A stretch of DNA of 23,561 nucleotides, from positions 1-23,561 of IMG/VR virus record IMGVR_UViG_3300036826_000059, one strand, 5' to 3'. Position 1 is the stretch's first letter. Every line of letters begins with the position of its first letter. The translations under genes were made by a program, and so were the position numbers. Below, piece after piece: positions 3,215 through 23,561 of the stretch. Below the pieces are notes generated by a model that saw only the letters and a program-made list of their open reading frames with translations, ran no database searches and was not told where the DNA came from. This stretch comes from a virus.

Positions 3215-3397
3215 GTGATTCCGATCCTGACGTTGATCGCGCTCTGGGGACTCGTGGCGATCGTCGCGTTGCTCGTCCTCGTCGCGGCGTGCCTCCTGGT
3301 CGAGCTCCGTGCGATCCGGAACGTGATCCGGGAGTGTCTCGAGGTGGTGACACGCCGATCGCCACCGGATCTCAGGACGTTTCATGCGCGGTCGTAA
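3215..3397 (+). CDS. Small single-pass membrane protein, 60 residues
   Basis: Starts with GTG at 3215 behind CAAGGGG. Residues 2-30 form one long hydrophobic helix (LIALWGLVAIVALLVLVAA and on), followed by a charged amphipathic helix with RAIRNVIRECLEVV and a polar tail. It overlaps the start of the small terminase by 14 bases, so the two are probably co-translated. One-helix proteins of this size can be holin-like or anchor proteins; position before the terminase gives no decisive hint. The 80 bases before it (3135-3214) hold no gene I can support. Confidence 0.65.
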   Translation: MIPILTLIALWGLVAIVALLVLVAACLLVELRAIRNVIRECLEVVTRRSPPDLRTFHARS

Positions 3398-3854
3398 GCC
3401 GGTGCCAACGCAGTTAAAGCTCCTGCGCGGTAATCCGGGCAAACGGCCGATCGCGACGCATGAACCGGCGCCGGCCGCGCTCGAGGCCTCGACGGCGCCG
3501 CCGGCCTGGCTGGAGGCCTCCGCCAAAAAAGAATGGCGCCGGCTCGCGCCGCTCCTTGCGAAAAACGGGCTCCTCTCGGAGCTCGACGTCGACGCCCTCA
3601 CGGCGTACTGCATCACGTTTGCCGAGTGGCGCCGGGCGGCCGCGGCCGCGCGTAAGCAGTCGACGGTCATGTCGGCGAACGGGTTTCTCATGCCGTCGCC
3701 ACATGTGACGATGGCGCGCCAGGCGCTCGCGCTCTGTCGATCGCTCATGAATGATTTCGGGATGACACCCTCCGCGCGTTCGCGCGTCACGAAAACGGCC
3801 GTCCTCGCGCCGGTGCCAGTCGGCAATCCGCTCGAGAAATTTCTTCGGCGATGA
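3384..3854 (+). CDS. terS: Terminase small subunit, P27 family
   Basis: The 156-residue protein opens with MRGRKPVPTQLKLLRGNPG, the typical start of P27-type small terminases, followed by a Pro/Ala linker, a helix with PPAWLEASAKKEWRRLAP, and a helical core ending in a short region with NPLEKFLRR. Small terminase binds the packaging site on concatemeric phage DNA and hands it to the large subunit. Length matches the family. The ATG at 3384 lies inside the end of the membrane-protein gene, and the stop overlaps a new ATG at 3851. The large subunit does not follow directly; a 230-bp methyltransferase remnant lies between. Confidence 0.93.
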   Translation: MRGRKPVPTQLKLLRGNPGKRPIATHEPAPAALEASTAPPAWLEASAKKEWRRLAPLLAKNGLLSELDVDALTAYCITFAEWRRAAAAARKQSTVMSANGFLMPSPHVTMARQALALCRSLMNDFGMTPSARSRVTKTAVLAPVPVGNPLEKFLRR

Positions 3855-4083
3855 TTCGCAAACAAATGCCGATCCTTGGGGAGACGTCCACTGGATCCCT
3901 TGCTGCGATGGCAAATGGCGGCCGATTGGATCCGGGGTTTTCCCGTTGGCTCATGGGATATCCAATCGCGTGGGACGATTGCGCGCCTATGGCAATGCGA
4001 TCGTCCCGCAACTCGCCGCGGCCGTGATTCGAGCCTATCTGGATGCGATCGAAAACGCGGAAAACACCAACAAGGCCGAGTAA
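3850..4083 (+). pseudogene. C-terminal remnant of a DNA (cytosine-5) methyltransferase
   Basis: Reading the frame that begins at 3850, the translation includes GDVHWIPCCDGKWRP, FPLAHGISNRVG and RLRAYGNAIVPQLAA and stops at 4083. This is the characteristic end of phage and prophage C5 cytosine methyltransferases (the target-recognition end and conserved motif X region, in which GNAIVP is diagnostic). The catalytic part, with the PC and ENV motifs, is absent, and no usable ATG or GTG opens the frame at its beginning. The fragment lies between the terminase genes and overlaps the start of the large subunit. I infer that a full methyltransferase gene once stood here and was cut down. The same DNA in another frame encodes the 58-residue reading frame at 3851. 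Confidence 0.75.
3851..4027 (+). CDS. Small overprinted reading frame, 58 residues, methylase-tail-like
   Basis: The ATG at 3851 overlaps the small-terminase stop (ATGA), so translation is likely. The peptide contains GGRLDPGFSRWLMGYP and then AWDDCAPMAMRSS, which resemble the C-terminal end of another group of phage DNA methylases. It uses the same bases as the methyltransferase remnant, shifted by one base, so one of the two protein tails appears to be an out-of-frame reading of the other. With no catalytic domain it cannot be an active methylase. It could be a spacer peptide, an expressed relic or a new short gene. The stop is 15 bases before the large-terminase ATG. Confidence 0.5.
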   Translation: MIRKQMPILGETSTGSLAAMANGGRLDPGFSRWLMGYPIAWDDCAPMAMRSSRNSPRP

Positions 4084-5821
4084 ACGGCCGCCGGCCGTCG
4101 ATCCGGTGACGGCGTACGCGCGCGCCGTCGTCGCCGGCGAGCGCGTGGCCGGCCGGCTGGTGCGGTTGGCCTGTCAACGGCATCTGACCGATCTCGAGGC
4201 CTCGCCGGCGAACGGGCTCACCTGGCGGCCGGCGGAGGCGATCCGCGTCATTGCGTTTTTCGAGGAAGTGCTCTGCCTCCCGGAGGTGACGGCCGCCGGC
4301 GACGCGCTCGAGGAGGACACCCCGGATCCGGAGGCCGGCCGGCCGTTTCTCCTCCAACCGTGGCAGCAATTTATCAACGGCTCGCTCATGGGCTGGTACA
4401 CCACCAACGGGACGCGGCGTTTTCACGATGCGTACGTGGAGATTGGCAAGGGCAACGGGAAAACGCCGAACGGCGCCGGGCTGATGCTGTATTTGCTCGT
4501 CGCCGACGGCGAACCGGCGGCGCAAGTCTTTTTCGCGGCCGTCTCGCGCGAACAGGCGCGGATCGCGTTTGCCGACGCGGAAAAAATGGTCCGGGCCTCG
4601 CCGGCCTTGCGATCGCTCGTGCAGCAAACCGTGAATAACCTCGCCGTGGTGGAGACGGGCTCGTTTCTCCGCGCGATCTCGAGCGAAAAACGCGGCCTCG
4701 ACGGCAAACGCGTGCACGGCGCGCTCCTCGACGAGGAGCACGAGCACGCGACGCCGATCGTCGTCTCGAAAATGCGGCGGGGCACGAAAGGCCGGCGCAA
4801 CGCGCTGGTCATGCGGACGACGAATAGCGGCTTCGATCGGACGTCGATCTGCTGGCACGATCACGACTACTCCCGGCAAGTCCTCGAGGGCGCCATCCGG
4901 GATCCGACGTGGTTTGCCTTCGTGGCCGGGATGGATCCCTGCCCGGCCTGCCTCGCCGCCGGCAAGGAATTTCCGACGGACGACTGCGCCGACTGCGACG
5001 ACTGGCGCACGGAAGGCGCGCACTGGACGAAGGCCAACCCGAATCTCGGCGTCTCGCTCCCGTGGTCCTACCTGCGCGAGCTCGTGACGCAGGCGAAAGG
5101 CCGGCCGGAGGCCGTCTCGGATCTCCTTCGGTTCAATTTCTGCGTCTGGACGCAGGCGATCACGCGCGCGATCGCGCTCGCGCAGTGGTTCGCCTGTCAG
5201 GCGCCGCCGGCCGCGGCGGAGCTCGTCGGCGTCCCGTGTTACGGCGGCCTCGATCTCGGGATGTCGGATGATTTCTCGGCCTGGGTGCGTGGCTGGATGC
5301 TCGACGATGGCCGGCTCGTGGTCCGGTGTCGGTTCTGGGTGCCGGAAGGCGCGATCGAGAAGTTTCCGTCACGGCCGTATGACGAATTCCGGCGCGCCGG
5401 CCTCGTGGTGACGCCCGGCCCAACGACGGACTACGAGACGATCGAGGCCGCGGTGGCCGCGGATTGTGAGGCCGACGGGATCCGCGAGGTCGCGTACGAT
5501 AACCGCTTCGCCGAACAGATGGCGCAACGCCTGGCCGGCCGCGGGATCACGATGGTACACACGGGCCAGGGGTTTCAATTGAACGAGGCGATCCGCCGGA
5601 AACTCGAGCTCATCCAGACGGGCGTCCTCTGCCACGGCGGCGATCCGATCCTGGCCTGGATGGCCGGCAACTATGTCGTCCGGCACGGGCCGCGGGGCGA
5701 TATGCGGCCGGCGAAGGAGCGGGCCGGGGATAAAATCGACGGCCAGGTCGCGCTCGATATGCTGATCGATCGGATTGTCCGGCGCCCGAAGGCGCCGGCG
5801 TATCAAGTCCTGATTTACTGA
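4043..5821 (+). CDS. terL: Terminase large subunit
   Basis: A 592-residue packaging motor. The N-terminal ATPase has a Walker A at residues 135-141 (GKGNGKT) and a Walker B at 227-232 (ALLDEE); the C-terminal nuclease has acidic residues in GGLDLGMSDD (D404), VAYDNRF (D486) and GDKIDGQVALD (D563, D566, D572). It translocates DNA into the prohead and cuts it. Between the domains, residues 300-318 carry two C-x2-C pairs (CPAC and CADC), which could bind zinc. Length and order fit the HK97-type large terminases. The start at 4043 overlaps the end of the methyltransferase remnant; the conserved part begins at about residue 20 (DPVTAYARAVVAGE), so a GTG at 4108 is a possible alternative. The head genes follow downstream. 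Confidence 0.96.
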   Translation: MRSKTRKTPTRPSKRPPAVDPVTAYARAVVAGERVAGRLVRLACQRHLTDLEASPANGLTWRPAEAIRVIAFFEEVLCLPEVTAAGDALEEDTPDPEAGRPFLLQPWQQFINGSLMGWYTTNGTRRFHDAYVEIGKGNGKTPNGAGLMLYLLVADGEPAAQVFFAAVSREQARIAFADAEKMVRASPALRSLVQQTVNNLAVVETGSFLRAISSEKRGLDGKRVHGALLDEEHEHATPIVVSKMRRGTKGRRNALVMRTTNSGFDRTSICWHDHDYSRQVLEGAIRDPTWFAFVAGMDPCPACLAAGKEFPTDDCADCDDWRTEGAHWTKANPNLGVSLPWSYLRELVTQAKGRPEAVSDLLRFNFCVWTQAITRAIALAQWFACQAPPAAAELVGVPCYGGLDLGMSDDFSAWVRGWMLDDGRLVVRCRFWVPEGAIEKFPSRPYDEFRRAGLVVTPGPTTDYETIEAAVAADCEADGIREVAYDNRFAEQMAQRLAGRGITMVHTGQGFQLNEAIRRKLELIQTGVLCHGGDPILAWMAGNYVVRHGPRGDMRPAKERAGDKIDGQVALDMLIDRIVRRPKAPAYQVLIY

Positions 5822-22761: not shown

Positions 22762-23561
22762 GAGGCGCCGGCGAGGTGCTCCTCCGCGGCGCCATCTACC
22801 ACGTCCGCTACTACGATCGCAACGGCCGGCAACGGGTCGAATCGACGCGCCAGGGCGATCCCGACGAGGCGAAGCGGATCCTGGCGGAGCGGATCGCCGC
22901 GATTAAAAACGGCGTCCCGGTGACGCCGCAAATTGCGCGACTGACGCTCGAGGCCGCGGCCGCGCTCGTCGAAGCGGATTACGAGCTCAAAGACAACCGA
23001 TCGCTCGCGCACGTCCAACGCCATCTCACGACGCTGAAAAACTATTTCGGGCGAACCCGCCGGATGACGGCGATCACGGCCGCCGATATCGATCAATTTG
23101 CCGTGACGCGCAAACGCGAGGGCTACACGCTCGCCTCGATCAATCGGGAAAAGGCCGCGCTCCGGCGCGCCTTCAAGCTCGCGATCCGGAAGGGGCTGCT
23201 CCTCGTCGCGCCGTATATCGAAACACCGAAAGAGGACAACGCGCGCCGCGGGTTTTTTGAATACGCGGAGTTTGCGGCCGTCCGCGCGGCGCTCCCGCCG
23301 GATCTGCAAGTGGTCGCGACGCTGGCGTACTACACGGGCTGGCGGCTCAAGGCGGAAATTCTGCCGATGGAGTGGAGCTGGGTGGATCGGGCGGCGTGCA
23401 CGATCACGCTCCCCGCGGCGTGCTCGAAAAACAAACGGCCGCGGGTCTATGCGTACGGCGAACTGCCGGAGCTCGTCGCCGCGATCGCGGCCTGCTGGCG
23501 CGAACACGAGCGGATCGAGAAAACCCATCAGAAAGTGACGGCGCGCGTCTTTGTCCGGTGG
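22758..23561 (+). CDS. int: Tyrosine integrase, N-terminal part (continues at base 128)
   Basis: First 268 codons of the 391-residue integrase; base 23561 equals base 127 and the frame continues to 499. The order is: a short N-terminal arm-binding region (YHVRYYDRNGRQRVES, then a long helix, residues about 11-60), a SAM-like core-binding domain (residues about 65-155, with ADIDQFAVTRKREGY), and the start of the catalytic domain with the first catalytic Arg in YYTGWRLKAEI (R196) and the beta-hairpin Lys in CSKNKRPR. It joins attP to the host tRNA-Lys site. ATGA coupling to the upstream gene places its expression under that gene's hairpin-controlled start. Confidence 0.95.
   Translation, partial: MRGAGEVLLRGAIYHVRYYDRNGRQRVESTRQGDPDEAKRILAERIAAIKNGVPVTPQIARLTLEAAAALVEADYELKDNRSLAHVQRHLTTLKNYFGRTRRMTAITAADIDQFAVTRKREGYTLASINREKAALRRAFKLAIRKGLLLVAPYIETPKEDNARRGFFEYAEFAAVRAALPPDLQVVATLAYYTGWRLKAEILPMEWSWVDRAACTITLPAACSKNKRPRVYAYGELPELVAAIAACWREHERIEKTHQKVTARVFVRW
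23435..23561. repeat. 127-bp terminal repeat, right copy (circular contig overlap)
   Basis: Exact copy of bases 1-127. Removing one copy leaves a 23,434-bp circle in which the integrase is intact. Confidence 0.95.

Follow-up and report, generated by a model that had tools for sequence, protein, structure and literature searches.

A remnant between the terminase genes of a viral record is probably the 3' stub of a C5-methyltransferase gene split over two overlapping frames

Results

The interval between the terminase genes

The stretch of DNA analyzed here, hereafter the window, is a whole virus sequence from IMG/VR (record IMGVR_UViG_3300036826_000059; 23,561 bases). Its first 127 bases recur as a direct terminal repeat (1-127 = 23435-23561), which indicates that the record is probably complete. 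Since an integrase open reading frame (ORF) is also divided between the record ends (22686 to the end, and 101-499), the record is a circular map.

All features of interest lie on the plus strand. The small terminase gene, terS, spans 3384-3854 (PF05119, E 7.6e-25; phrog_83, 8e-43), and the large terminase gene, terL, spans 4043-5821 (PF20441, 4e-25; PF03354, 2.5e-22; phrog_9, 5e-128). Two overlapping reading frames occupy the space between them. Frame b is an ORF of 58 codons (3851-4027) that begins at 3851 with an ATG that overlaps the stop codon of terS (..CGATGATT..) and ends with a stop codon at 4025-4027; it contains a segment resembling methylase motif IX, GGRLDPGFSRWLMGYPIAWD, at 3917-3976. 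Frame a is an open stretch of 78 codons (3847-4083; stop codon at 4081-4083) that lacks a start codon and carries a motif X, RLRAYGNAIVPQ, at 3976-4011, with its GN 74 nt downstream of the start of the motif IX-like segment. The terL start overlaps the final 41 nt of this stretch. As argued below, frames a and b appear to be the 3' stubs of two chains, alpha and beta, respectively.

A first-pass annotation of the window had described two recognizable methylase endings on the same bases (3850-4083), and both coordinates and peptides were found to be as described. Its reading of frame a as a remnant without start or catalytic part agrees with the 78 codons and the lack of a Pfam match, and the ATG at 3851 does lie within the terS stop region, forming the ATGA overlap that it had reported. 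With this geometry, the frame b stub is perhaps translated by coupling to terS.

Database matches of the two stubs

The frame b stub matches phrog_31772 (E 3.7e-12) and phrog_1008 (6.3e-8), while the frame a stub matches phrog_363 (2e-11); the families matched by either stub are phage "DNA methyltransferase" families. When phage genomes were searched by tblastn, 270 phage records were found with frame b (best E 7e-12, about 64% identity) and 299 with frame a (best E 3e-19, 65% identity). Hence both translations have matches, not one only, and in phages matched by both, such as K1ind2, the a and b matches are identical nucleotides. Nucleotide homology between the two methylase groups, which the first-pass annotation had envisaged, is thus found in a literal sense: they are the same nucleotides of the same genes. 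The presence of two methylase-matching frames on the same bases is not due to chance.

Searches of Pfam and NCBIfam returned nothing for either stub, and a search of the whole 23,561-base record detected no second copy of the frame a stub. With only the last 78 codons left, the window stub falls short of the catalytic domain of C5-cytosine methyltransferases (PF00145).

Intact relatives carry two overlapping frames

Relatives were gathered from IMG/VR, GTDB genomes and phage records, and at least 593 alpha-tail relatives were confirmed in IMG/VR. For Escherichia phage K1ind2, both frames were annotated by the depositors, frame a (phrog_363, 9e-89) as a "putative C-specific methylase" and frame b (phrog_1008, 1e-64) as a "putative Mte8-like protein"; the two genes are offset by one base (+1) and share almost their entire length. 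One Xanthomonas phage record lists both frames as DNA methyltransferase. PHROG 363 and PHROG 1008 are two frames of one gene, though they are separate families in PHROGs. Usually, a single gene is entered in the annotation of intact relatives, and we found no report of a phage overlap of this kind in the open-access literature searched.

Intact alpha has the features of a C5-cytosine methyltransferase: the alpha of relative L007 matches PF00145 (3.6e-17), and the invariant residues P81-C82-Q83, G155-P157-H158 and G291-N292 represent the catalytic PCQ, motif VIII and motif X. Among 190 complete C5-methylase genes of this type, the +1 ORF covers a median of 90% of the gene, compared with 21% in the third frame. 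The 10th percentile of +1 cover is 81%, and the long +1 ORF holds across GC contents of 45-75%. A single gene of the 190 (L030:1947-3143) has a +1 ORF below 60%, and its beta tail is absent; the gene may represent a single-chain variant without beta.

The openness of the +1 frame was scored at P ≤ 0.02 by a codon permutation that preserves both the alpha protein and its codon usage. The frame was over-open in 94% of 48 alpha genes, compared with 1.9% of 54 control ORFs from the same loci and 2% for frame +2; as pairs and loci share descent, the P values of different genes are not independent of one another. Canonical C5 methylases of the same genomes did not show a general +1 ORF excess.

The arrangement was also approached from the beta side. 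Alpha lies one base back in 80 of 80 beta-found loci of bacterial genomes (80 of the 98 examined in GTDB genomes), and an open frame with a C5-type RVxxGhP tail lies one base back in 80 of 81 matches to an EWLMGFPxGW DNA pattern in IMG/VR, both sets having been recruited by the beta tail and being therefore biased toward beta by design. Two other IMG/VR sets, recruited by alpha, are free of this bias. The motif X GN signature is present in 74 of the 80 pattern loci with the RVxxGhP tail. The pattern loci thus reveal the same arrangement in a second, larger clade; in this EWLMGFP clade, 68% of 53 testable genes have a significantly open +1 frame, versus 6% for +2. Two large phage/prophage clades, in many bacterial phyla, share the arrangement.

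Both frames are under purifying selection

Substitutions inside the overlap were sorted according to what they change in each of the two frames, using 37 independent close pairs and, as controls, genes of the same loci. The ratio dNN/dNS was 0.15 (95% bootstrap 0.11-0.19) against 0.51 in controls, and dSN/dSS was 0.40 (0.33-0.52) against 1.60. Changes that would create a stop in beta stood at 0.10, a tenfold depletion, compared with 0.73 in controls. The permutation and substitution tests together establish that both frames are under purifying selection. An alternative measure, the similarity of beta between pairs relative to codon-permuted partners, had too little frame-specificity (z 5.3 for +1 and 3.3 for +2), and the substitution classes were used in its place.

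When the gene was divided into segments, coding duty was seen to pass from one frame to the other. From the start to motif IV the N/S ratio is 0.09 in alpha and 3.5 in beta; in motifs IV-VI it is 0.05 and 5.1, respectively, and in motifs VI-VIII it is 0.20 and 1.1. In the 15 codons after motif VIII both ratios are low (0.44 in alpha, 0.35 in beta), and in the variable region, the candidate target-recognition region (TRD), the relation is reversed (3.17 in alpha, 0.07 in beta). The two segments before motif X, around motif IX, again show low values in both frames (alpha/beta 0.44/0.43 and 0.34/0.28), and after motif X the ratios are 0.05 in alpha and 7.6 in beta. These values indicate that alpha codes motifs I-VIII and X, that beta codes the variable region, and that both frames are read around the beta tail.

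The same data bear on the idea that beta is not a protein, the openness of +1 being a by-product of codon usage, GC content or the amino acid composition of alpha. Long alternative ORFs are indeed common in high-GC genes, and beta has no relative in Pfam, NCBIfam or PDB. Against this, the excess persists when alpha and its codon usage are kept and is the same from 45 to 75% GC, control ORFs and canonical C5 methylases are negative, and beta is under strong purifying selection with a reversed codon-position pattern. A pure composition explanation of the +1 ORF was thus rejected statistically by the permutation and substitution tests, and we regard a non-protein beta as extremely improbable.

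The beta tail resembles motif IX

A profile of 305 beta tails, with the consensus GGQLNPxxSRWLMGFPxxW, aligns with the canonical motif IX, PLxxREyARLQGFPDxW (hhalign P 4.8e-4). Of 14 canonical C5 methylases, 12 have motif IX itself as the best ungapped match of the profile. The match, though short, identifies the beta tail as motif IX. In canonical C5 methylases the GN of motif X follows the motif IX match by 32-38 residues. In the dual-frame genes the distance from the start of IX to the GN of X is 74 nt, both in 172 genes of the phrog_363 type and in 105 genes of the EWLMGFP clade. As 74 nt equal 24 2/3 codons, IX and X sit in different frames; compared with 32 in-frame codons, a net loss of 22 nt would have moved them apart. 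A spacing that is constant in both clades suggests a common origin.

Motifs IX and X of the two frames are neighboring segments of a single ancestral C5-methylase tail. The first-pass annotation had anticipated a frameshift, and the position of IX in b and of X in a, with the net 22-nt loss between them, agrees with it. The accompanying proposal that one methylase tail type was derived from the other does not hold, as frame b corresponds to motif IX and frame a to motif X, successive pieces of a single tail.

Structure predictions

The AlphaFold2 (AF2) model of alpha is confident up to about residue 170 and from about residue 290, that is, over motifs I-VIII and X, while residues 194-256 and 270-291 fall below pLDDT 50. 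These low-pLDDT stretches agree with the coding map of alpha derived from substitutions. A Foldseek search with the alpha model retrieved M.HaeIII, M.HhaI and DNMTs. The beta model is weak (pLDDT 59), with confidence only in one helix-hairpin and the motif IX tail, and it gave no fold match.

Could beta be a separate functional protein, such as a regulator or an anti-restriction factor, overprinted on the methylase without being its subunit? Some phages have beta annotated as a gene in its own right, and its AF2 core, a helix and a beta-hairpin, has no known fold. However, the beta tail matches motif IX in register, alpha has neither a motif IX nor a conserved recognition region, and alpha was always present beside beta among the loci examined. 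We therefore consider a separate overprinted protein unlikely.

Frame-swap variants

In four of the 80 bacterial beta loci (L108, L137, L143 and L145) the frames are swapped by an indel. An enterobacterial version of the alpha/beta gene varies at one poly-G site, with G7 at L108:2926, G9 at L143:2902, and G8 at L146:1827 and L147:1827. Both frames are intact with G8; with G7, alpha I-VIII runs on into the C-terminus of beta, and with G9, the N-terminus of beta runs on into the C-terminus of alpha. It is possible that this tract is a phase-variation or slippage switch. Other lineages swap alpha and beta frames at G8/G9 tracts (L336:2772, L341:1214 and L344:2933). In L242 (8842-9805), motif I (MKVVDLFSGIGGF) lies in the beta frame and motifs IV-X in the alpha frame, an arrangement that may have arisen by a further natural swap of frames or by an error of assembly. 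In L245 (minus strand, reverse complement about 3280-4153) the TRD, IX and X are in the beta frame and I-VIII in another, a split resembling that of M.AquI.

Such variants raise the question of whether slippage, ribosomal or transcriptional, normally fuses alpha and beta into a chain of the order I-VIII-TRD-IX, the frame being switched at poly-G tracts. The two fusions produced around G8 at a single enterobacterial site would fit this idea, as would the swaps at G8/G9 in L336, L341 and L344 and the presence of IX and X in one frame in L245. Nevertheless, runs of G or C of at least 7 are depleted in intact genes (10, compared with 27 expected), which speaks against a general slippage site, and the fused chain would be without motif X. 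Slippage as the normal mode of expression is, in our opinion, quite unlikely.

The window copy and other contents of the terS-terL slot

Homology of both stubs begins just past the terS stop. The relatives found through TerL differ at this position: the terS-terL gap is lacking in L057 and L059; in L053, the closest relative (94% TerL identity), the gap (67-609) is occupied by a methylase-like ORF of 180 codons with a DPPY motif; and in L063 it contains an N6_N4_Mtase gene of 440 codons (584-1906; PF01555). A C5 stub between terS and terL is absent from all TerL relatives found. Alpha-tail relatives with the C-terminal part in a separate ORF were considered as further stubs; where examined, they were frame-swapped or shifted genes.

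The stub is most likely a relic in a cargo slot between terS and terL, in which about the last 75-78 codons of a dual-frame C5 methylase appear to have been kept. Recombination or deletion beside the terS stop may have removed the upstream part, leaving the two tails. Being a start-to-stop ORF, the frame b stub is perhaps still translated via the ATGA overlap. This consideration, together with the uninterrupted frame b and the retention of key motif IX residues, would also suit a functional 58-aa microprotein, a beta tail coupled to terS. On the other hand, the lack of the stub in every TerL relative found, the loss of most of the recognition region and the presence of alpha as a tail only make a microprotein improbable.

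Discussion

We consider it very likely that the feature in the window is what remains, at the 3' end, of a split C5-methyltransferase gene coded in two frames, with the alpha/beta model, the frameshift origin and the relic status taken together. Within that explanation, the two coding frames, the selection acting on each, the passing of constraint between them, the identity of the motifs and the stub itself follow from the data, while we infer the translation of beta, the heterodimer, the frameshift origin and the loss of function in the window.

Under the model that we favor, alpha (frame a, PHROG 363) consists of motifs I-VIII, a long and weakly constrained linker, and motif X. The +1 frame, b, encodes beta (PHROG 1008/31772), which would start early in the gene; its N-terminal part would be a passenger, and its C-terminal half would carry the target-recognition region and motif IX. 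A single conserved start codon or SD was not established for beta. The large, catalytic domain would thus come from alpha and the small domain for DNA recognition from beta, and the two chains may associate in the manner of M.EcoHK31I. The ancestor would have been a single-frame gene of the order I-VIII / TRD-IX / X, whose middle block was put out of frame by one indel before the TRD and the net loss of 22 nt between IX and X.

More generally, an obligate two-chain C5 methylase with overlapping frames and the TRD in +1 only is probably the default in both clades, and many annotated "C5 methylases" and "LNPxWVEWLMGFPxGW" proteins would then be half enzymes. If so, two seemingly separate phage protein families are the two chains of one enzyme, and the existence of an annotated chain without a recognizable motif IX and recognition domain is accounted for. 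Specificity studies that clone the annotated ORF alone may fail, or may rely on unnoticed expression of beta. The genes would also make up a very large natural collection of long overlapping genes for mapping constraint frame by frame, and the overlap would offer a clean system for studying the evolution of frame hand-over.

In M.HhaI-type enzymes, motif IX belongs to the small domain together with the recognition region, and motifs I-VIII and X belong to the large domain (PMC3404938). Alpha resembles M.HhaI and M.HaeIII in its fold and in motifs I, IV, VI, VIII and X; these enzymes differ, however, in being encoded in a single frame, with IX in the same chain and without a general +1 ORF excess. 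M.AquI shares with the arrangement described here the location of I-VIII in one chain and the recognition region in the other. Its beta chain contains IX and X together, whereas X remains in alpha here: in nearly all loci IX belongs to beta and X to alpha, L245 being the exception.

When compared by its described motif layout, M.EcoHK31I (YGGCCR) is similar in that the larger chain carries I-VIII and X while IX lies in the smaller one; in the intact relatives studied here, motif IX is likewise missing from the large chain and present in the small. The smaller chain of M.EcoHK31I is reportedly read from an overlapping alternative frame, and the genes described here overlap in different frames, both of them selected. 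M.EcoHK31I is a natural two-chain C5 methylase whose larger subunit contains I-VIII and X and whose smaller subunit has IX alone, the predicted TRD being assigned to the larger subunit (PMC3404938). In contrast, the substitution pattern found here points to a variable region in beta, and the dual-frame arrangement covers two large phage/prophage clades.
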